Positions 1,219 to 43,445 of a DNA stretch of 64,000 bases are shown here, in pieces. Made by a program: the position numbers and the translations under genes. Source of the stretch: Deltaproteobacteria bacterium (GTDB lineage Bacteria; Desulfobacterota; Binatia; UBA9968); NCBI GenBank assembly GCA_016874755.1, contig VGTH01000019.1:1-64000 (forward strand). Reading direction: 5' to 3'. Below the pieces are notes generated by a model that did no database searches, had not been told where the DNA came from, and saw nothing but the letters and a program-made list of their open reading frames with translations. Numbering within the stretch: the first letter of the stretch is position 1; each line of letters opens with the position of its first letter.

Positions 1219-1413
1219 AGTCCATTAGGATAAGTCTGGGCGGCTCGATCACACGCTGTCCGAAGAGAGTCTCGGCGCGCCAAGGCATCAAAACACCGAT
1301 CCAGCAGAAGCTCAGCGCGGTCAAGATAATTCCGGTCGACTTCACTCAAGCGGAGCACATGGAAAAGCACGCCAAACGCTACCGCGAAATTTTTCTCTCG
1401 AGCAAAAAGTAGC
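1219..1413 (+). pseudogene. C-terminal remnant of a probable extracellular solute-binding protein
   Basis: The frame ending at TAG 1411-1413 reads ...KLSAVKIIPVDFTQAEHMEK then HAKRYREIFLSSKK. This resembles the C-terminus of the periplasmic SBPs abundant in this genome type (an 'I-P-V-D-F ... KRY..IF' ending). No start codon, signal peptide or N-terminal lobe exists upstream; the sequence soon runs into repeats. The following MmgE/PrpD gene starts 4 bp after this stop and lacks a clear Shine-Dalgarno sequence, as if once translationally coupled to a full-length gene. The family assignment is from remembered family endings and needs a profile search. Confidence 0.4.
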
Positions 1414-1416
1414 GCC

Positions 1417-2775
1417 ATGGGAGCCACCGAAGAGATCGCCGAGTTCGTCGCCGCCACGCGCACCGGGGGTATTCCTGACGCCGTGCTGGGATTGGCCAAG
1501 CGCGGCGTGATCGATACCTTGGGTGTCGCCATCGGCGCCGCCGCTCACCCCATCGGCGACATACTGTCGAAAACATTATCGCCGACAAGCACCGGCGCGG
1601 TTTGTCTGTGGAACGGCCGCGGCAAAGTCGACGCGATGGATGGGGCGCTTTGCAACGGCACCATCGGCCACACCTTGGACTTCGACGACGGCGGCGTTGC
1701 GCTGACGCCGATGCATCCTTCGACGCCGGTGCTCGCCGCGGTCTGGGCGCTCGGCGAGAGCGGCAACTTTTCTGGCAAAGACGTGCTGGCGGCGTACACC
1801 GTGGGCGTCGAAGTCGAGTGTAAGGTCGCCAGCGCCATATCGTTAACGCACTACGATCATGGCTGGCACTCGACGGCGGTGCTCGGTTCGTTTGGAGCTG
1901 CGGCTGGCTGCGGCTTTCTGCTAGGTTTGAATGTAGCAGCGCTGCGCACGGCCATCGGCATCGCGGCCTCGATGACCGGCGGGCTGAAAGTCAATTTCGG
2001 CACCATGACCAAACCGCTTCACGCCGGCCTGGCCGCGCGCAATGGCTTGATGGCAGCGCAACTGGCGCAACACGGCTGGACCGCCAATCAAAACGCATTG
2101 GAGACCGGAAAGGGATTTTTCGAGGTCTTCCAGTGCGGCGAAGTCGGCGCGCTGCATCTCGGCCAGCCCTTTCATTTTCACTCGCCCGGTGTCTCGATCA
2201 AGCGCTTTCCATCTTGCTCTGCCACCCACCATTGCATCGAAGCGATGCTCGCGCTCAAAAGCGCCCATAATCTTAGAGCTGAACAGATCGAGCGCATCGA
2301 CTGCAGCGTGCACGCGGTTTCCTACCAAGCGCTACGCAAAGAGCCCGGGGTCTCAACCCCTGAGCAGGGCCGTTTCAGCTTGCACTTCACCATGCCGTTG
2401 ATTGTTCTCGAAGGCTCGGTGGAGCTCAAACACTTCGCGCCGCGCTACTTTGACAGAAAAGATTTGCAGGCGCTTTCCAACAGGGTGGCGATCGCCATTC
2501 ATCCGGAACTCGAAACTCTAGAGTCCAAGAAAAAAGCTTTCGGCGAAGTCACCGTGACTTTGAAAGACGGCCGCCGCCTGAGCCATCGCGCCACGGAGAT
2601 TCGCGGCCGCCCGCCGCTGCCGCTCAGCGATGCCGACGTCGACGGCAAATTTGTCGGTTGCGCCGAGCCGGCACTAGGGGAAGACAAGGCGCGAGCGCTG
2701 TTAACGGCGCTGCGCTGTCTCGAGGCGCAGCAAGCGATGGGGCCGCTGCTGTCCCGCGCTTATTCCCTTGCATAA
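1417..2775 (+). CDS. MmgE/PrpD family protein
   Basis: At 452 residues this has the normal length of the MmgE/PrpD family (2-methylcitrate dehydratase, cis-aconitate decarboxylase and relatives). Family landmarks include LAKRGVIDTLGVAIG near residues 27-41, the DFDDGGVALTPMHPS stretch (about 88-102), HGWHSTAVLGSFGAAAGCG (about 148-166) and the CSATHHCIEAML helix (about 267-278). Members act on tricarboxylic or methyl-branched acids in the cytoplasm. No prpB or prpC is nearby, so a methylcitrate role is not supported; the next gene, a TcuA-like flavoprotein, makes a tricarboxylate-type substrate possible. The ATG has a poor ribosome site and follows the upstream stop by 3 bp. Confidence 0.85.
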   Translation: MGATEEIAEFVAATRTGGIPDAVLGLAKRGVIDTLGVAIGAAAHPIGDILSKTLSPTSTGAVCLWNGRGKVDAMDGALCNGTIGHTLDFDDGGVALTPMHPSTPVLAAVWALGESGNFSGKDVLAAYTVGVEVECKVASAISLTHYDHGWHSTAVLGSFGAAAGCGFLLGLNVAALRTAIGIAASMTGGLKVNFGTMTKPLHAGLAARNGLMAAQLAQHGWTANQNALETGKGFFEVFQCGEVGALHLGQPFHFHSPGVSIKRFPSCSATHHCIEAMLALKSAHNLRAEQIERIDCSVHAVSYQALRKEPGVSTPEQGRFSLHFTMPLIVLEGSVELKHFAPRYFDRKDLQALSNRVAIAIHPELETLESKKKAFGEVTVTLKDGRRLSHRATEIRGRPPLPLSDADVDGKFVGCAEPALGEDKARALLTALRCLEAQQAMGPLLSRAYSLA

Positions 2776-2912
2776 TCGCAGTGCTCCGCATAATGATCCG
2801 CGGAGGAGCGGGAGTTCCCCGGGGTTGATCCGACGCGGCTTGGACATCCGCTCCATATTCGTCCGTAACGATTGGATTTGAGCGATTTCATTCTTTTTTG
2901 TGGGAGGACTCC

Positions 2913-4397
2913 GTGGCCAATCTCAAAGAACTCCAAACCGATGTGTTAGTTATCGGCGCCGGCAATGCCGCTCTGGTGGCCGCCGAAGCGGCCTACGATG
3001 CCGGGCTCAAAGTGACGACCCTGGAGCGCGCGCCGAAGATTCGCCGCGGCGGCAACTCGGCTTTTTCCGGCGGGCTGTTTCGCTTTGCCTTTAGCGACTT
3101 CGAGCATGTCAAAGAAATTGTCAACGAAACACCCGGCGTCGAGTTCACAGACGTCGACGTCGAGCCCTACCCGACCGACATGTTCTACGCCGACCTGATG
3201 CGTGTCACCGAAGGAATGGCCGATCCGGCACTCACCGAAATGCTCGTGGCACGCTCCGAGGAAGTCGTCACCTGGATGGCCAAGCATGGCATCGATTGGG
3301 AACTGCACATGAGCCATGTCGCCAAAGTCAAAGGCAAGTTTATCTGGCGCTCGGGCACGATCCCGGTCTCGGCGCGCGGCGGCGGCCATGGGTTGCAGGA
3401 AATGCACTTCAAGCATGTCGAAGAGCGCGGCATGGAGGTGCTTTATCAGGCGCGCGCCTTGGAACTATCGCAGGACGACAGCGGCGCGGTGAACGGCGCG
3501 CTAATCACGACGCCGGCGGGCAGACAAATGGTCAAAGCCAAAGCCGTGGTGCTCGCCTGCGGCGGCTTTGAATCCAACCCTGAGATGCGCGCGCGCTATC
3601 TCGGCCAGAACTGGGATTTGGTCAAAGTGCGCGGCACGCGCTACAACACCGGCGATGGCATCAACATGGCGGTGGCGGTAGGCGCCAACCCTTTCGGCCA
3701 CTGGAGCGGCTGCCACGCCTCGGTGATCGACGGCGACAGCCCAAACATCGAAGCGGCACAGGATGAGAGCACGCGCTACTCCTACCCTTACAGCATCATG
3801 GTGAATACGCTCGGCGAGCGCTTCGTCGACGAGGGCGAGGACTTTCAGGTCTACACGTACGCCAAGACCGGGCGGCGCATACTCGCTCAGCCCGGCCAGA
3901 TGGCTTTTCAAATTTTTGACGGCAAGACCATTCCGCTTTTGCGCAGCAACTATGTGCGCAGCCGCCCGGTGGTGGCCAATACGATCGAGGAATTGGCCGA
4001 CGGCTTAGGCATCGAACCAAAACGTTTGCGCCGGACTGTCGATGAATTCAACAAAGCGGTGTCACCGGCGGAGTTCGACTTTTCCAAGCGCGACGGCAAG
4101 TGCACGATCGGTTTAAATCCCGACAAATCGAACTGGGCGTCGCCCATCGACACCCCGCCCTATCAAGCCTACTCCGTTGCCTGCGGCATTACCTTTACCT
4201 ACGGCGGCCTGCGCATCGATCCGCAGTGCCGGGTGTTGACCGCGGACGACGAACCGATTCCCGGTTTGTGGGCGGCCGGCGAATTGACCGGCGGATTTTT
4301 CTATCACAACTATCCGAGTGGGTCTGGCTTGATGCGCGGCGCCATCACCGGCCATGTATCCGCGAGCGAAGCCGTGAAATATATCAAAGGCAAATAA
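2913..4397 (+). CDS. FAD-dependent oxidoreductase, TcuA/fumarate reductase flavoprotein-like
   Basis: The N-terminus carries the FAD-binding Rossmann motif (DVLVIGAGNAALVAAEAA), then an acidic ribose-binding residue in TTLERAP and the GGNSAFSGGLFR loop typical of the fumarate reductase/tricarballylate dehydrogenase family. The C-terminal GLWAAGELTGG and YPSGSGLMRGA motifs contact FAD again. I chose GTG 2913 because GGGAGGA (2902-2908) lies just before it; a TTG at 2898 would put that site inside the gene. The protein is 494 residues with no signal peptide, so it is cytoplasmic. Members oxidise or reduce a C-C bond next to carboxylates. Its pairing with MmgE/PrpD hints at tricarboxylate chemistry, but no TcuB electron-transfer partner is visible. 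Confidence 0.8.
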   Translation: MANLKELQTDVLVIGAGNAALVAAEAAYDAGLKVTTLERAPKIRRGGNSAFSGGLFRFAFSDFEHVKEIVNETPGVEFTDVDVEPYPTDMFYADLMRVTEGMADPALTEMLVARSEEVVTWMAKHGIDWELHMSHVAKVKGKFIWRSGTIPVSARGGGHGLQEMHFKHVEERGMEVLYQARALELSQDDSGAVNGALITTPAGRQMVKAKAVVLACGGFESNPEMRARYLGQNWDLVKVRGTRYNTGDGINMAVAVGANPFGHWSGCHASVIDGDSPNIEAAQDESTRYSYPYSIMVNTLGERFVDEGEDFQVYTYAKTGRRILAQPGQMAFQIFDGKTIPLLRSNYVRSRPVVANTIEELADGLGIEPKRLRRTVDEFNKAVSPAEFDFSKRDGKCTIGLNPDKSNWASPIDTPPYQAYSVACGITFTYGGLRIDPQCRVLTADDEPIPGLWAAGELTGGFFYHNYPSGSGLMRGAITGHVSASEAVKYIKGK

Positions 4398-4474
4398 CTC
4401 GCCGCGTAATGCGCCACGCGACGCTGAACGGCGTGATCGTACCACGTCAAGTAGTGTCGTTATCGGGATCGCGC

Positions 4475-4876
4475 TTATTTGAGTGACTTGATATCCGGCT
4501 TCTCCGCCGGTTTCGGCGGCGCTTTGTCGGGGGACTTCGCCTCAAGGCCCGGGGCGGGACCGACGCCGCGTTTCTGCAGCTCATCGATGACCATCTTGGC
4601 GCCGGGGTGGCCTTTGGCCGCCAGCTCTGCGGTTTTGGTCATCAGGGTTTGGAACTGGCTCTGAATCTTCTGCGACTCCTGCAGCGCAGCATCTTGGCTC
4701 TCTTTAGCGATGCTGAGGTTGGTGCGGTCGCGCAGCAATTGTACCGCTTGCGCGCCATGCCAAATCAAAAGCGCTAACAGCGTCAGGAGAAACGCCAGTT
4801 GTAGACTGTTACTTTCCCCGGGCACGAATTCTTCCGCCGCGTCCGCTTGCGAACTTCGTTGTTCATCCGCTTCCAC
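4475..4876 (-). CDS. small membrane-anchored protein of unknown function
   Basis: The 133-residue protein has an acidic N-terminus, one membrane helix (SLQLAFLLTLLALLIWHGAQAVQLL, about residues 23-47 in pieces), a charged coiled-coil-like segment rich in Q and K (about 50-95), and a Pro/Lys/Ala-rich tail ending PEKPDIKSLK. It probably has its C-terminus in the periplasm. It lies 6 bp after the similar bitopic protein 4883-5167, so the two may form a complex. It is the last gene of the lepA-lepB transcription direction. I do not recognise the family. Confidence 0.65.
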   Translation of the reverse strand: MEADEQRSSQADAAEEFVPGESNSLQLAFLLTLLALLIWHGAQAVQLLRDRTNLSIAKESQDAALQESQKIQSQFQTLMTKTAELAAKGHPGAKMVIDELQKRGVGPAPGLEAKSPDKAPPKPAEKPDIKSLK

Positions 4877-4882
4877 AGGTCC

Positions 4883-5167
4883 TCATTTCTTTGGCGCCGG
4901 AGCTTCCGGCGCGCCGCCCAGATTGATACCGCTCGAGACCAGCAGGTTTCTTAGCTGCTCGTCTTTGCTCTGCACGGCAAGGTTGGCCAACACGGTGACA
5001 ACCTGGCGATAGAGCGCTTCGATCTGCACCGTCTGAGCGATGGTTTGCTGGCGATCGCTCAGCTCGGCCTGGGTCGACTGAACGTTGTTCTGCAAAAATA
5101 CATTGACGACGACAAGCAGCAACAACACCGCGGACAAAATCATCGGTAAGATTTTGCTTTTCAGCAT
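4883..5167 (-). CDS. small bitopic membrane protein of unknown function
   Basis: This 94-residue protein starts with a helix (ILPMILSAVLLLLVVVNVFL, about residues 6-25) and continues with a Gln-rich amphipathic region that could be a coiled coil, followed by an Ala/Pro tail (EAPAPKK). Its layout is the same as its downstream neighbour. The 190 bp between it and lepB contain a period-9 palindrome, so it may have its own promoter. No family recognised. Confidence 0.6.
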   Translation of the reverse strand: MLKSKILPMILSAVLLLLVVVNVFLQNNVQSTQAELSDRQQTIAQTVQIEALYRQVVTVLANLAVQSKDEQLRNLLVSSGINLGGAPEAPAPKK

Positions 5168-5250
5168 CTTCCCTCTTTCCCTCTAGAGCTTGTAAAAGCG
5201 CGCCGCGTTTCCTCGCATGGTCGGCCTCCGGCGTTAAAGATCGGCTGATT

Positions 5251-5346
5251 TAACCGCAAAGAACGCAGCGAACGCAAAGGTAAGATCCCATCGTGCCATT
5301 TTCAGGCGAAGCCACGGCAGTGATTTTTTGCGTTCTTTGCAGTGTT
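5251..5346. repeat. head-to-head period-9 palindromic repeat
   Basis: GCAAAGAACGCA (5256-5267) is exactly inverted as TGCGTTCTTTGC (5329-5340), each arm belonging to a run of 9-bp CGCAAAGAA units. The 60-bp centre is unique sequence. It occupies the gap between lepB and the small membrane protein gene. Confidence 0.75.
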
Positions 5347-5358
5347 TTCTTCAGCTTG

Positions 5359-5982
5359 CTACCAGATCAGATTGCCCAGCCGCTCCCAGCGCACCCAGCG
5401 GTCGCCGCCGTCCCAGGAGAAATAGATCAGAAAAGCTTTGCCACGCACGGCATCCAGGCTGACATAGCCCCAGAAGCGGCTATCGTAGCTGCGATCGCGG
5501 TTATCGCCCATGACGAAGACATGATTCTCAGGCACGGCGCGCGGCCCGTAGTCGCGGCCACTCATGCCAGCGGCTTGCGGGTCGTCACCTTCGAAGTGGG
5601 CATGGGCATCTTCGACTTGCTTGCCGTTGATGTAAACTTTCTTATTGCGCACTTCGACCGTGTCGCCGGCGACGCCGATCACCCGTTTGATAAAGTCTTT
5701 GGACGGGTCCTCGGGAAAAATAAACACAATCACGTCGCCGCTCTGCGGCTTGCGGTAGTCGAGCAGGTATTTTTCTAAGAACGGCATGCGGATGCCGTAA
5801 GCTAGCTTATTGACCAGAATATGATCGCCGATTTGCAGGGTTGGAATCATCGAGCCGGAGGGAATCCTGAATGCCTGCACGATGAAGGTCCGGATGAACA
5901 GCGCCAGCAGCAAAGCCATAAAAATGGCTTCGGCGTACTCGCGGATGGCGGATTTGGTCTTAACGTTGGCTTGCGCTTCCAT
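5359..5982 (-). CDS. lepB: signal peptidase I
   Basis: This membrane serine protease removes signal peptides from exported proteins. It has one N-terminal membrane helix (AIFMALLLALFIRTFIVQAF), then the catalytic serine in PSGSMIPTL, the lysine region KRVIGVAGDTVEVRNKKVYI and the family box GDNRDRSYDSRFWG. The protein is about 207 residues from ATG 5982. GTG codons at 6000 and 6009 and a TTG at 6027 are in frame upstream; the one at 6000 has AAGGTGAG before it and is a real alternative start. The gene follows lepA after 160 bp, the classical lepA-lepB order, with a period-7 palindrome in the gap. Confidence 0.93.
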   Translation of the reverse strand: MEAQANVKTKSAIREYAEAIFMALLLALFIRTFIVQAFRIPSGSMIPTLQIGDHILVNKLAYGIRMPFLEKYLLDYRKPQSGDVIVFIFPEDPSKDFIKRVIGVAGDTVEVRNKKVYINGKQVEDAHAHFEGDDPQAAGMSGRDYGPRAVPENHVFVMGDNRDRSYDSRFWGYVSLDAVRGKAFLIYFSWDGGDRWVRWERLGNLIW

Positions 5983-38319: not shown

Positions 38320-38556
38320 ACTCACCACGAAGGACCTAGGGCGGCAGCCGCAACCGAATCCGACGAAAGATTTAACCACAAAGAGCACAAGGGAGCACAA
38401 AGGCGCTGCGCGCCCCGATTGGGAACCGGAGAATTTAACCGCAAAGAACGCAAAATTTCGGAGAGGAATATACACCACGAAGACCACGAAGGCAGGAGAG
38501 ATGACAATCAAAAAACCTCTCCGAACTTCGTGTCCTTCGTGCGCTTCGTGGTGAGA
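38320..38556. repeat. compound period-9 palindromic repeat block
   Basis: The gap between the IorA remnant and the IorB-like gene is made of repeats: TTAACCACAAAGAGCACAAG units (38372 on), AACCGCAAAGAACGCAAAAT (38438 on), CACCACGAAGACCACGAAGG (38472 on), and the inverse GAACTTCGTGTCCTTCGTGC (38523 on) with CGCTTCGTGGTG. TTTCGGAG and CTCCGAA copies mark the core seen elsewhere. Both the CGCAAAG and CACGAAG unit types occur in one block. Confidence 0.8.
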
Positions 38557-38603
38557 TTTGAATTTTGTCCGAAACTAAGTTTGTGCAAGCAGGAGATCGA
38601 AAC

Positions 38604-40877
38604 ATGAAATCAATGCAATTCACCCGCAGACAATTTCTTAAATCCACCGGCGCGCTGGTCGTCAGCTTCAACTTGCTGCCGCCCGCCGGCAAAGTATTTG
38701 CCCAGTTCGCCAAGCTGCCCTCCGGCGACATCGATCCGACTTCGCTCGACTCGTGGCTCGTCATCACGCCGGACGGTTACGTGACCTTTTACACCAGCAA
38801 GGTCGAGATCGGCACCGGCACGATCACCGCGCTGGCGCAGTTTGTCGCCGAGGAATTGGACGTGGCGTTTAACAAGATCAAAATGGACTCCGGCGACACC
38901 GAAAAAACCATCGAGCAGGGCTCCACCGTCGGCAGCCGCTCCATCGAGCGCGCCGGCCCGCAGATTCGCCAGGCCGCCGCGGCTGCGCGCCACGAATTGT
39001 TCAAGCTCGCCAGCGCCCAGCTCGGCGCGCCGGTGGAGAAGCTTACCGTCGCCGACGGCGTCGTCAGCGTGGTCGGCGAGCCTTCCAAGCGCGTTACTTA
39101 TGGCCAACTGATCGGCGGGAAAAAATTCAACACCAAGCTCTCGGTCAAAGGCACGGGCTGGGACATGGTGGTCGCGCCGGAAGTCAAAGCGAAAAACCCC
39201 AAAGACTACAAAGTCGTCGGCCAGTCGATTCAACGCGTTGAGCTGCCGCGCAAGGTGACCGGCGAGCATGACTACATTCACGACGTGCGCCTGCCTGGCA
39301 TGCTGCACGGCCGCGTCGTGCGGCCGCCGGCGATCAACACCGACCCGGAGTCCATCGACCAGGACTCGATCAAAGGCATTCCCGGGGTCGTGATGATTGC
39401 CCGCGAAGGAAAATTCGTCGGCGTGGTCGCCAAGACCGAGTGGGCGGCGATCAAAGCGGCGCGCGCCTTGAAAGTCACCTGGGCCAAACCGACCAGCAAA
39501 GTGCCGGGCACGGCGGATGAAGTTTACACCTACTTGAAAAACACCAAGCCAGTGCGCTCGCTCAAGCCGGTGGACAAAGGCAGCGCGACCAAAGCCTTGG
39601 CGGAAGCCAGGAAAGTTTACCAGTCGAGCTACCGCTTCCCGTTTCAGATGCACGGCATGATTCGCCCATCCTGCTCCATCGCTGATGTCAAAGGCAACAA
39701 GGCGACTATCTGGTCCGGACCGCAAGGGCCGTTCCGCACGCGCAGCACGGTGGCAGCGATCCTCGGCTTGAAAGACCAGGACGTGCGCATCATCTACCAC
39801 GAAGCGTCGGGCTCCTATGGCCGCATGAGCACCGACGACGGCGCCGAAGACGCCGCGATCCTCTCGCGCGCCGTCGGCGCGCCGGTGCGCGTCCAATGGT
39901 CGCGCCAAGACGAACACGGCTGGGAGCCCAAGGGTCCGGCACAAGTTGACGAAATCAAAGCCGCGGTCGACAGCGACGGCAAAATCACCGCGTGGGAGTT
40001 CGCCGACTACGGCCAGCCGTGGACCGCGTCGGGCTCGACGCCGCTGTTGGCGTCACTGCAAGTCGGACTTCGCCCGACCAACCCCGGCGGCTCCAACGGC
40101 ACGCAAAGCAGCGGCGAGTTCTACACCATCGCCAATCACCTGATCAACATTCATCACATCAACTGGCATTTCCCGGAGCCGATCCCGCTGCGCACCAGCA
40201 ACCTGCGCGCGCCGGGCGACGTCGCGCGCTGCTTCGCCAGCGAAGGATTCATCGACGAGATCGCCGCCGATTTGAAGGTCGACCCGGTGGAGTTTCGTTT
40301 GAAAAATCTCACTGGCAACAAGCGCGCCATAGAATGTCTCCAAGCCGCCGCCGACAAAGCCGGCTGGCAGAAACGGCCATCACCCGCACCCGCCCAAAGC
40401 GGCAATATCGCCAAGGGCCGCGGCGTGGCGCTGACCAATCGCGCCCAAACCTACGTTGCCATCGTCGCCGAAGTGGAAGTCAACAAGACCACCGGACAAG
40501 TGGCGGTGAAAAAACTCGTGTGCAGCCACGACTGCGGCCTGATCGTCAACCCCGACGGCGTGAAGAACCAAGTCGAAGGCAACGTCATCCAAGGCGTCAG
40601 CCGCGCGATGTACGAAGAAGTGCTGTTCGACAAAGACAGCAGCGTCACCAGCCTCGACTGGGCGACTTATCCAATCCTGCGCTTCACCGAGCTACCCGAG
40701 TTTGAGCTAGTGCTAATCAACCGCCCAGAAATGAACCCCCTCGGTGCCGGCGAAGGCGCGACGATCCCCCCCGCCGCGGCGATCGCCAACGCCATCTACG
40801 ACGCTGTCGGCGCCAGATTGAAAGAAGGGCCGTTTACACCGAAGCGCGTGCTGGCGGCGATGCAGAAGAAGGCGTGA
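38604..40877 (+). CDS. xanthine dehydrogenase family molybdopterin subunit (IorB-like), Tat-exported
   Basis: The 757-residue large subunit starts with a Tat signal (FTRRQFLKSTGALVVSFNLL), as IorB-type proteins do. It has the aldehyde oxidase hammerhead and molybdopterin domains; the C-terminal NPLGAGEGATIPPAAAIANA carries the catalytic glutamate. Such enzymes hydroxylate N-heterocycles or oxidise aldehydes. AGGAGAT (38591-38597) precedes ATG 38604; a TTG at 38565 is a poorer start. Its [2Fe-2S] partner is truncated upstream, so electrons cannot leave by the usual route unless another small subunit exists. No cytochrome subunit follows. Confidence 0.9.
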   Translation: MKSMQFTRRQFLKSTGALVVSFNLLPPAGKVFAQFAKLPSGDIDPTSLDSWLVITPDGYVTFYTSKVEIGTGTITALAQFVAEELDVAFNKIKMDSGDTEKTIEQGSTVGSRSIERAGPQIRQAAAAARHELFKLASAQLGAPVEKLTVADGVVSVVGEPSKRVTYGQLIGGKKFNTKLSVKGTGWDMVVAPEVKAKNPKDYKVVGQSIQRVELPRKVTGEHDYIHDVRLPGMLHGRVVRPPAINTDPESIDQDSIKGIPGVVMIAREGKFVGVVAKTEWAAIKAARALKVTWAKPTSKVPGTADEVYTYLKNTKPVRSLKPVDKGSATKALAEARKVYQSSYRFPFQMHGMIRPSCSIADVKGNKATIWSGPQGPFRTRSTVAAILGLKDQDVRIIYHEASGSYGRMSTDDGAEDAAILSRAVGAPVRVQWSRQDEHGWEPKGPAQVDEIKAAVDSDGKITAWEFADYGQPWTASGSTPLLASLQVGLRPTNPGGSNGTQSSGEFYTIANHLINIHHINWHFPEPIPLRTSNLRAPGDVARCFASEGFIDEIAADLKVDPVEFRLKNLTGNKRAIECLQAAADKAGWQKRPSPAPAQSGNIAKGRGVALTNRAQTYVAIVAEVEVNKTTGQVAVKKLVCSHDCGLIVNPDGVKNQVEGNVIQGVSRAMYEEVLFDKDSSVTSLDWATYPILRFTELPEFELVLINRPEMNPLGAGEGATIPPAAAIANAIYDAVGARLKEGPFTPKRVLAAMQKKA

Positions 40878-41030
40878 GGGCGTGGCTAATCGTCGACCAT
40901 TCGGCCTTGCCCTATTGTCAGGTATATTGGTGCTATACTGACCAGTGATATTGGATATACGAGCGAGGCACGAGCGCGGCAGAGAATTGACAACCTGTTG
41001 ATTGCAGGCGTAAATTTCCAATCGATGATT

Positions 41031-41037
41031 GTTGGGT
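41031..41037 (+). other. GTTRRRY core site upstream of the cassette-like VOC gene
   Basis: GTTGGGT matches the integron recombination core GTTRRRY exactly and lies 82 bp before the VOC start codon. It could be the upstream boundary of a gene cassette. A 7-bp match occurs by chance often, and the hairpin before it is weak. Confidence 0.25.
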
Positions 41038-41118
41038 ATCCAATTTACCAGATCAGTTCACTCAATGGTTCGGCGACGGAGACGAAGCCTCGCCGCACTC
41101 GCATCGAGGAGCAATACG

Positions 41119-41589
41119 ATGTCCAGCACGATTCGCACTTGCCTCTGGTTCCGTGACGGACGGGGCCGGGAGGCCGCAGAATTCTACTGCTCTCTCATTC
41201 CGGGAAGCCGGGTCGAGCACGTCTTCACAATCGATAATGCCGAGATGGGCACGTCCTGGCTAATCGACTTCACCCTCGGCGGAGTGCCTTACCAGATACT
41301 CGATGCCGGACCGTATTTCACACTGACCGAGGCCGTGTCGATTTCGGTCGAAACCCCCGACCAGGGCGAGACCGATCGACTATGGGCCGCGCTCACTGCC
41401 AATGGTGGCCAGGAAAGCCGCTGCGGCTGGCTGAAGGACCGCTTTGGCGTGTCCTGGCAAGTGTTCCCGAAACGGCTGACCGAATTGACACTGAACGCAG
41501 ACAAGAAAGTCGCTGCCAAAGCAATGGCCGCGATGATGAAACAGACGAAAATCGACATCGCCCCGATTGAAGCGGCGGTTCTCGCTTGA
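41119..41589 (+). CDS. PhnB-like VOC protein (3-demethylubiquinone-9 3-methyltransferase-type domain)
   Basis: The 156-residue protein starts STIRTCLWFRDGRGREAAEF and has FGVSWQVFPK and a C-terminal helix with AAKAMAAMMKQTKIDI, the hallmarks of the PhnB-like VOC group (so-called 3-demethylubiquinone methyltransferase domain). Function in this group is largely unknown. GAGGAG precedes ATG 41119, and the upstream extension is Arg-rich and unlikely to be translated. The gene is followed after 11 bp by an attC-like site, so it may be an integron gene cassette. PhnB-like proteins are common cassette products. Confidence 0.85.
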   Translation: MSSTIRTCLWFRDGRGREAAEFYCSLIPGSRVEHVFTIDNAEMGTSWLIDFTLGGVPYQILDAGPYFTLTEAVSISVETPDQGETDRLWAALTANGGQESRCGWLKDRFGVSWQVFPKRLTELTLNADKKVAAKAMAAMMKQTKIDIAPIEAAVLA

Positions 41590-41600
41590 GTTGCAGGCAC

Positions 41601-41697
41601 GCCGAACCAGGCGCTGCAGCAGACGGCGGGGGCATGTAGCGGTTCTGGGGTTCATAGCTCACTCGGCCCCCGCCGCTGCTGAGCTTGGTCGTTAACC
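41601..41697 (+). other. attC-like integron recombination site
   Basis: The 97-bp element has the arrangement of attC: a left core GCCGAAC (41601-41607, R''), spacer, a 16-bp stem whose left arm (41617-41633) pairs perfectly with the right arm (41666-41681) apart from one extra-helical A at 41623, a variable loop (41634-41665), spacer, and a right core GTTAACC (41691-41697, R'). Both cores differ from the consensus (RYYYAAC/GTTRRRY) at one base. The single unpaired base on the left arm is a known attC mark. The next ORF starts 12 bp after it. Confidence 0.6.
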
Positions 41698-41709
41698 AGA
41701 CGAGATTCT

Positions 41710-41940
41710 ATGTCAGCATTTCCTGGTTTCGAGAAACTGTATTTCTTGACCGACCCGCTATCTAAGCGACCGTTACGGGGTGAATTTCAGACAAAAGTCG
41801 ACTGTTTGGCGCTTACACGAGGTGATAGTAGTACGTCAGATACCGTTTGCGTCTCGTGGTATATGGGTGGCGCAACACCCTCCGACCTAGTGTGGGCGGG
41901 GGACGAACGGGGCAACGTGTCAGGCTTTGATTATCGGTAA
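41710..41940 (+). CDS. small hypothetical protein following the attC-like site
   Basis: The 76-residue frame starts MSAFPGFEKLYFLTDPLSKR and ends GFDYR, with no recognised motif. It begins 12 bp after the right core of the attC-like site, as cassette genes do, and has lower third-position GC than surrounding genes. No second attC can be seen after its stop. It may be the remains of a cassette or a chance frame. Confidence 0.4.
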   Translation: MSAFPGFEKLYFLTDPLSKRPLRGEFQTKVDCLALTRGDSSTSDTVCVSWYMGGATPSDLVWAGDERGNVSGFDYR

Positions 41941-42155
41941 TTGCTTTCGACTCATCTAAACTTCTAATATAAACAATCCATGCGCACCTGAGTTGTCACG
42001 CTTCCCCGAGCTGGGATGTGGCAGCCGACACTTGATCGATTGCAGCTAGGATTGACGGACTGACCCAATTGATCGACGCCGCATTACAGAGAGTATTTCG
42101 ATCTAACCAACGTCGCAAGATCGCCTGTCGTTCGGTTTTCAAGACAATTTTCGTC
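41941..42155. other. intergenic region, atypical composition
   Basis: The stretch is less GC-rich than the flanking catabolic genes and has no good coding frame. A short hairpin (TCAAGAC 42139-42145 with GTCTTGA 42153-42159) overlaps the -35 box of the following gene. Confidence 0.4.
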
Positions 42156-42185
42156 TTGACGGTGAAACGTCATCGGACATATGTT
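42156..42185 (+). promoter_or_regulatory. candidate sigma-70 promoter of the amidohydrolase gene
   Basis: TTGACG (42156-42161) and TATGTT (42180-42185) are separated by 18 bp and lie 31 bp before the ATG at 42217. The -35 overlaps the right arm of a 7-bp hairpin (42139-42159), which could be an operator. Confidence 0.5.
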
Positions 42186-42216
42186 CGGGGTAGTTGTCTC
42201 ATAGCGGAGGTCTCCC

Positions 42217-43260
42217 ATGTACATCGACTGCGATTCCCACTATTTCCCCGTGTCGTTTTTGGAAGGCATCAGCGATAAGTATCCGCACTCGCCGCGCGTC
42301 GTGCGCAAGGGCGACGACGTGCGCTCGGTGTTGCCCGACGGTACGTTGATCAAGAACCAGGCGCCCAAAGGGCGCTGGCATCTCGACACGCGGGTGCAGC
42401 ATGTCGATTGGGAGGGCTTCGACGTCCACGTGTTGATCCCGGAAAACCGCGAGCTGCTTTACACTTGGGATCGCGACTTGGGCTGCGAGCTGGCGCGGCG
42501 CTACAACGACGCGGTGGCGCAGGATCTGAAAGAATGCGCCCATCCCGAGCGCTATCTCGGCGTCGGCTGGGTCTTTCTCCCCGACGTCGAGGAGTCTTGC
42601 AAAGAACTCGAACGGATGGTGAAAACCCTCGGCTTGAAAGCGGTCAAGTTCATGGGCGGCTTCGCCGACGCCAACCTCGGCGCGGAAAGACTTTGGCCAT
42701 TCTATCAGAAGTGCTGCGATCTCAATGTGCCGATCCTGGTGCACGACACCGCTTCGGATCGCGACGGTCATCCCAATCCCGCGTTGGTCGGCATCGAACA
42801 ATTGTACCTCGAAGTCGACAACAACGCTTTGCCCTTTTTGCTCGGCTTTCCGTTTCGCTACATCGTCGACATGGGAAGTCTGATCTTGCGCGGCGCTTTG
42901 AAAGAATTCCCCAAGCTGCGGGTTTGCTTTGTCGAAGGCTCCGCGGCGTTCGTGCCGTGGTTGATGGATCGTTTGGATATGGACCCGACGGCGAAAAAGA
43001 AGTTGGGCAAACGGCCGCGGGAGTTTTTCGATCAAATCTGGGTCTCGGCCTTCGCCGCCGAGGAGTTGAGCTACACTTGCGACGTTTGGCACAACCACAA
43101 CCTCACCGTCGGCAGCGATTACCCCCACGGCGATCCGTCGGCGACATGGAATTCCGAACACGGCACTGTGCAGATGATCAAAGCGATGACGCGCCTGTCG
43201 GACGCGGACAAAGAAAAGATCTTGGGCGGCAATGCGATGCGGCTGTTCGGGATGGCTTAG
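42217..43260 (+). CDS. amidohydrolase, ACMSD/dihydroxybenzoate decarboxylase type
   Basis: The 347-residue protein is a metal-dependent TIM-barrel of the amidohydrolase family 2. It starts MYIDCDSHYFP, where D-x-H binds metal, has the middle PILVHDTASDRDGH histidine and the GSDYPHGDPSATW aspartate near the end. Family members decarboxylate aminocarboxymuconate semialdehyde or hydroxybenzoates, or hydrolyse rings and lactones. GGAGG lies 8 bp before the ATG. It is one of four paralogues in this region and is followed by repeats and an SBP gene. Confidence 0.87.
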   Translation: MYIDCDSHYFPVSFLEGISDKYPHSPRVVRKGDDVRSVLPDGTLIKNQAPKGRWHLDTRVQHVDWEGFDVHVLIPENRELLYTWDRDLGCELARRYNDAVAQDLKECAHPERYLGVGWVFLPDVEESCKELERMVKTLGLKAVKFMGGFADANLGAERLWPFYQKCCDLNVPILVHDTASDRDGHPNPALVGIEQLYLEVDNNALPFLLGFPFRYIVDMGSLILRGALKEFPKLRVCFVEGSAAFVPWLMDRLDMDPTAKKKLGKRPREFFDQIWVSAFAAEELSYTCDVWHNHNLTVGSDYPHGDPSATWNSEHGTVQMIKAMTRLSDADKEKILGGNAMRLFGMA

Positions 43261-43281
43261 GCGAAATAAGATTCGGAAGAA

Positions 43282-43445
43282 TCTCCCGCAAAGGCGCAGA
43301 GGCGCAAAGTTTCGGAATAATGTCTCGCGCAGAGGCGCTGAGGGCGCAGAGTTCGGGAGAAGAATTAACCACGAAAAGCACGAAACACACGAAATGAGAT
43401 TTAAAGTTTTCTTTTTTTCGTGATTTTCGTGTGTTTCGTGGTTAT
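43282..43445. repeat. compound period-9 palindromic repeat
   Basis: The first half has CGCAAAGG, CGCAGAGG, CGCAAAG then TTTCGGAATAATG and CGCAGAGG, CGCTGAGGG, CGCAGAG then TTCGGGAG. The second half has AACCACGAAAAGCACGAAAC and the inverse TTTCGTGTGTTTCGTGGTT, close to a perfect palindrome. Both unit types are present. It lies between the amidohydrolase and SBP genes. Confidence 0.8.

Follow-up and report, generated by a model that had tools for sequence, protein, structure and literature searches.

The window, i.e. the whole stretch of 64,000 nucleotides that was analysed, lies in contig C19 of G000, a 5.56-Mb draft genome; loci in relatives are given below as genome:contig. Between a gene for a molybdopterin-dependent protein and an amidohydrolase gene it carries an attI-type platform with a putative Pc-like promoter, a gene for a VOC/PhnB-like protein, an attC site and a short open reading frame (Table 1). 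The amidohydrolase belongs to a very large family with at least 87 matches in G000. Two stretches near genes, 43232-43423 and 38419-38607, are of a dispersed repeat type with translations like NHEKHETHE, RRGAEGAE and HHEDHEGRR.

Table 1 Features of the locus, in coordinates of the window
Feature	Coordinates	Strand	Basis
Molybdopterin-dependent (xanthine dehydrogenase-like) gene, left flank	38565-40877	+	Pfam MoCoBD_1/2
attI-type platform (type B)	40919-41068	+	Bounded by CAGGTATATT on the left and by the crossover G41068^T41069 on the right; model R1
Palindrome ACTGACCAGT in the 5' arm	40937-40946		Sequence and aligned copies, by eye
Putative Pc-like promoter, TTGACA-18 bp-TAAATT	40987-41016	+	Sequence and conservation in aligned copies
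attI core TCACTCAATG-GTTCGGC	41058-41074	+	Aligned copies diverge here; junction 41068/41069
Gene cassette, 623 bp	41069-41691	+	R'' GCCGAAC is reverse complementary to the junction GTTCGGC without mismatch
VOC/PhnB-like protein gene, 156 aa	41119-41589	+	PF06983, 117 bits
attC	41601-41697	+	R'' 41601-41607, R' 41691-41697; sole window match with models R2 and R3
76-aa open reading frame after attC	41710-41940	+	Open reading frame list; starts 12 bp past attC
Amidohydrolase gene, right flank	42217-43260	+	PF04909

The attC site and its neighbouring genes

The initial annotation had proposed the attC with one mismatch in each core box and a 16-bp stem interrupted by a single extra-helical base, and had named a covariance model as the check. 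The site was confirmed at the exact coordinates. Its boxes, GCCGAAC (R'') and GTTAACC (R'), deviate from the consensus in one position each, and the paired stem consists of 6 bp, an extra-helical A and a further 10 bp, with 9-nt spacers on both sides. The covariance model R2, built from ten attC sites of related loci with the window excluded, gave 47.2 bits (E 1.4e-9) and no other match in 64 kb up to E 5. One row of R2, G020:C122, had entered via its likeness to the attC of the window; model R3, made from the nine sites without that row, yielded 38.1 bits (E 1.8e-6) at unchanged coordinates, again as the only match in 64 kb. With filters off and 7 kb scanned, R2 scored 33.3 bits (E 5e-7) at 41604-41694, and the runner-up reached 8.2 bits. 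The R2 alignment displayed covariation: 83.8 % of the cells were paired vs 68.7 % in shuffles and 28 cells were changed on both sides vs 12.7, and none of 500 shuffles reached the observed value on either measure.

A GC-rich hairpin or terminator that stands between two genes by chance would be an alternative. It is favoured by the modest folding of the site relative to shuffles (z -2.7 as DNA, bottom strand; -2.2 as RNA) and by the frequency of such anatomy, about once per ten random sequences of window length: an anatomical scan found one site in the window and four sites in three of 40 first-order random sequences of equal length. However, R3 detects the site with no row found via the window's own attC, a homologous attC (79 % identity) stands behind another gene in G020:C122, the start of the cassette is complementary to R'' and an attI lies upstream, so that the probability of a chance hairpin is practically negligible. 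Rfam models at gathering scores and a tRNA search found nothing in the window.

The VOC gene ends 11 bp before the attC, in agreement with the annotated PhnB-like gene just before the site, and the short reading frame follows at the annotated distance. Relatives of the VOC protein were confirmed in 107 cases with up to 83 % identity, in records named Methylophaga, Accumulibacter, Luteimonas, Acidobacteria, Verrucomicrobia and others. Among the best 80 of these 107, eight loci of other bacteria have an attC directly after the VOC gene (L155, L158, L160, L173, L174, L182, L186 and L216; the weakest is L182 with E 0.012), beginning within about 55 bp past the gene, and R3 recovers the same eight. 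They include Adhaeretor and Roseilinea in addition to proteobacteria. By its company with attC sites in eight of 80 loci, the VOC gene is to be regarded as a cassette gene. For the 76-aa reading frame no attC of its own was detected with R2 (64 kb; 7 kb with filters off) or R3, nor a Pfam or NCBIfam match, nor a relative among PLSDB plasmids; it is a possible remnant of a second cassette. Of the proposal that one cassette-type gene lies on each side of the attC, the part on the VOC gene was supported, the part on the short reading frame was not. The stretch 41698-42155 gave no DNA match at E 0.01 among the loci compared; it presents neither an alignable flank nor a recognisable second cassette. 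The base composition was also described as lower in GC around the site. This applies in comparison with the left flank (0.51-0.59 in 400-bp windows of the cassette region vs 0.60-0.66 over 38.6-40.8 kb), but the right flank at 42.6-45 kb is about as low (0.52-0.59), hence GC is weak evidence.

The attI-type platform and the cassette junction

In addition to the attC, a DNA search with 40878-42216 in 58 relatives revealed another conserved stretch at ~40919-41075, which recurs in G000 (C14, C26), G004, G001, G008 and G017. In G008:C49 this platform is located directly 3' of an intact intI. The left edge GCAGGTATATT is common to the aligned copies wherever the left arm is present, the right edge lies near TCACTCAATG-GTTRRR, and beyond it the copies are divergent. 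A shared left edge, a Pc-like promoter and divergence after the GTT are together what an attI would look like once a cassette has been inserted into it. Model R1, a sequence model from nine platform copies with the window excluded, matched 40919-41072 with 97.2 bits and E 2.6e-29. By sequence, 40919-41068 is thus an attI-type site. The aligned copies have in common a putative Pc-like promoter of the form TTGACA, 18 bp and a TAAATT-like box; its TTGACA element is invariant in nine aligned relatives and exact in 20 of 24 platform copies. In several relatives, an inverted counterpart of the palindrome ACTGACCAGT was seen by eye close to the crossover, within the 3' arm. Control of Pc by LexA was considered and rejected: the attI-arm palindrome CTGRYCAG differs from the lexA box of the genus, TACTG-N10-CAGTA, found before lexA in G000 and G004. 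Phages had no match to 40900-42160, and a single degenerate pattern of the promoter region was not matched exactly in viral contigs. Among plasmids, 53 records matched; the 20 matches listed lie within the VOC gene.

The platform bears on a further alternative, the off-target capture of a cassette at a random attG site, with an accidental likeness to attI upstream. Cassette insertion into attG has been reported (cited in the available parts of PMC12901181 and PMC12444791). Against it, the 150 bp upstream of the cassette fit an attI model that is independent of the window, and the same element adjoins the intact intI of G008, which makes an off-target event very improbable.

The initial annotation had pointed to a perfect GTTRRRY at 41031 upstream. 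This motif, GTTGGGT, is present, but it is situated inside the attI, and the true junction G^TT is the one at 41068/41069. There the start of the cassette is exactly complementary to its own R'', as expected when the R' of a circular cassette is split on integration. Eleven type-B sites, the type of the window, possess both a junction GTT and an attC; six of them show exact complementarity and five a single mismatch, and none of 20000 permutations was as good, with seven of the eleven sites pre-selected by the same criterion. The four sites that were not pre-selected, the window included, have 0, 0, 0 and 1 mismatches. Of 10 foreign junctions, none was an exact match for the window or for G004:C78, whereas 2 fitted as well or better at each of the remaining two sites. 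An earlier control that applied an energy threshold discriminated weakly (5 of 24 own vs 33 of 532 foreign junctions). A twelfth platform copy with attC, G000:C26, has lost the junction GTT.

The flanking gene pair was found without the platform in the congener G004:C73, with roughly 310 bp between the genes. This orthologous locus without the cassette counts in favour of an integron platform with one captured cassette. The DNA identity of the amidohydrolase gene is 88 % to G004:C73 and 83 % to G001:C57. Homology to G004:C73 ends at ~40887 and resumes at 42216 (at 42200 for G001), and the ends of the insertion are not readable to the base from these comparisons. Empty sites for G000:C14 and G004:C8 were not readable; their left and right flanks match different contigs in the congeners.

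Integrase genes and dispersed platforms in the family

The stated lack of an integrase in the window was borne out: the IntI family TIGR02249 had no hit on contig C19, and no IntI match was present within 1.5 kb upstream of the window's platform. The proposed search of the genome for intI gave a single gene over the family cut-off, split between the ends of contigs C69 (L001, end) and C39 (L002, start), the hit over the cut-off being the one on C69. This gene contains extra sequence with repeated CGGCAACCTG at the borders, as an insertion sequence would leave. A related core, TCACTTAATA-GTTAGGC, is located 203 bp past the end of the IntI match in G000; it was named type A. Across G008:C49, G004:C75, G001:C63 and G000:C39 the intI match is followed by the attI core at a distance of 147-203 bp from its end. 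The window's genus has a split intI in G000, a frameshifted one in G004:C75 and a broken one in G001. No intI over the cut-off was detected in G002, nor in G003 (67 % complete). Within the genus no intI with an unbroken full-length match was found, thus present activity is doubtful. C-terminal remnants of intI precede attI in G020:C343, G008:C16 and G007:C133, and pieces of intI occur in G011:C17. In G008:C49 (L275, 1-8000) a same-strand run of lexA, a RecA-like (imuA-like) and an imuB-like gene has intI at its end (the whole at 1264-5721, minus strand), and in G004:C75 (L276) the intI match is preceded by lexA at a distance of about 1.6 kb. An SOS-driven co-expression of intI with the lexA-imuA-imuB-like run is suggested.

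Type-B platforms were observed in 24 places in 11 of 25 family genomes, nine of the 24 having trained the model; four are in G000 (C13 partial) and six in G004. A search of 145 genomes drawn from the class, with stricter filters, gave 11 positives, all in the family of the window. Upstream sequence of 1.5 kb was available for 22 copies and was screened with four IntI queries at E 1e-3: one copy follows a whole intI, two follow C-terminal remnants and 19 had no match. Only 12 of the 24 copies have an attC on the same strand in the downstream sequence available, and seven of these 12 attC sites are in the R2 training set. The 17-base core pattern of type A occurs in 23 places in 12 of 25 family genomes, three of which are type B. 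An IntI match lies upstream in seven of the 23; in two, weak IntI-like matches were seen on the downstream side only. Ten further non-B places with at least 1.2 kb upstream had no IntI match (one of these ten, G002:C18, may be chance). Five attC hits were obtained in G000, and four of them (C19, C14, C26 and C7) follow an attI core or platform without an upstream intI match. By these counts, the window locus ranks as one of a dispersed set of integrase-less platforms in the genome and the family. Two near-identical platforms lie 1.3 kb apart in G008:C5 (L055, 1-1700) with a truncated intI between them, and two others 0.3 kb apart in G008:C16 (L239); an intI tail precedes each of these two, and no crossover is recognisable in the first. 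Repeated platforms together with broken intI genes indicate that both duplication and loss of intI occur.

A difference in cargo was observed at one orthologous orphan site. The identity between G001:C3 and G004:C41 is 82 % as far as the crossover GTT and 86 % beyond the insert; the 1.9 and 1.6 kb between these flanks are unrelated from the crossover on. The insert of G004:C41 contains an Mrr-type restriction gene, that of G001:C3 other genes. Both platform copies have no left arm, and neither 18-kb region contains an IntI match below E 0.09. No attC was detected by the model at these two sites, consequently cargo replacement there rests on the sharp junction, and the attC sites would be decayed or different.

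An intI may once have stood between the xanthine dehydrogenase-like gene and the attI, captured the VOC cassette and later been deleted. Such a decay of a complete integron is compatible with our main reading; we give it slightly less than even odds. Intermediates exist in the family, namely the intI remnants, the pieces in G011:C17 and the frameshifted gene of G004:C75 described above, and CALINs have been proposed to be degraded integrons (available parts of PMC9024848 and PMC8618304). Against decay, the attI edge lies only 41 bp past the stop codon of the upstream gene, and the same left edge recurs in copies of different contexts, though six of the 24 copies have no left arm. The gene pair of G004 without platform also argues against it, but could also mean a loss in G004.

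The left edge is relevant for a more far-reaching idea as well: as satellite integrons, attI and Pc would form a discrete dispersing unit with the fixed left end GCAGGTATATT, which would seed the chromosome with several ports for capture and expression, filled in trans by one IntI from another locus, giving many one-cassette integrons instead of one long array. Among 13 copies picked as full-length, the window not among them, mean identity in 78 pairs was 27 % in the 40 bp upstream vs 89 % in the first 11 bp; between G000:C14 and C26 it was 17 % vs 96 % over 45 bp, and among the 17 copies starting at model position 1 or 2, the window included, 26 % vs 83 % in 136 pairs. The copies without left arm were counted against a fixed end, and the conserved edge could be a limit of selection instead. 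In a search for terminal inverted repeats, the left edge was compared as its reverse complement, allowing up to 2 mismatches, with the 233 to 1500 bp of downstream sequence available per copy; two of 24 copies gave a hit, at no common place, and no transposon end, terminal repeat or target duplication was found for the platform. We consider the dispersing unit less likely than not.

Interpretation and relation to known systems

The window most probably contains a single-cassette integron with attI and a Pc-like promoter, without an integrase, the cassette being inserted at the attI crossover; we assign this reading a probability of roughly 85 %. An integron integrase would have joined the folded bottom strand of the cassette attC to the attI at G^TT, as the junction and box sequences indicate. 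Recombination of the single bottom strand of attC is an established mechanism. From the promoter sequence, the Pc-like promoter is predicted to transcribe the VOC gene. The capture may have used an IntI made elsewhere in the cell, or one in cis before intI was lost here. The orthologous pair G001:C3 and G004:C41 favours an IntI from elsewhere without proving it, and capture in trans is plausible. The locus would be related to the integrons of the family, which have the attI 3' of intI. The mechanism would be an ordinary one in an unusual arrangement; the sequence establishes attC and attI, and recombination and expression are predicted. The initial annotation as a stray cassette or a cluster without integrase was right regarding the cassette and its attC. 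"Stray" is not the best term for a cassette with an attI and Pc platform upstream, and its start had been misplaced.

Integrase-less cassettes are often counted as degraded integrons; many of those in this family still have a docking site with a promoter-like sequence, and the cargo at an orphan attI differs from the crossover on in one species pair. If IntI acts in trans, the integron would be a distributed system, and surveys based on intI and attC would miss its ports. The attI model R1 makes this idea testable in the family genomes. It also adds attI sequences outside class 1, where attI sites are poorly described. Among open-licence papers, covered by titles and abstract openings and with most subscription papers outside this set, none was found to describe multiple attI platforms scattered through a genome in the absence of intI.

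With one attC and no intI nearby, and lacking the intI in cis of a complete integron, the locus is in the terms of IntegronFinder a single attC without integrase (SALIN/CALIN), here with its own attI and Pc-like promoter. It resembles SALINs and CALINs as an attC-bearing cassette away from intI, in this case with one attC. It differs in that the cassette is preceded by attI and a Pc-like promoter and that several loci in the genome and the family have the same platform. The SALIN/CALIN definition is based on attC alone and silent on attI. SALINs are scattered in Shewanella genomes (available part of PMC9229058), and in Xanthomonas CALINs reside at seven chromosomal loci, with mobilisation in trans mentioned (available part of PMC12444791). 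IntegronFinder detects no attI outside class 1 (PMC9024848, in part). Three routes to CALINs, off-target insertion, intI loss and rearrangement, are named in the available text of PMC8618304. The Shewanella prophage M16-3, which also contains a complete integron, likewise has a CALIN with its own attI (PMC9892861, as far as available); one extra attI in one prophage there contrasts with a single attI type here that is present 24 times, in 11 of 25 family genomes.

Integrons whose intI is oriented like their cassettes are known by the name reverse integrase. In the family this orientation is represented by G008:C49, G004:C75, G001:C63 and G000:C39, unlike the window with no intI. Insertions at attG (Loot et al. 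2024, as cited elsewhere) share with the window a cassette outside an intI-bearing integron; their target is a non-classical site, whereas the target in the window would be a conserved attI.
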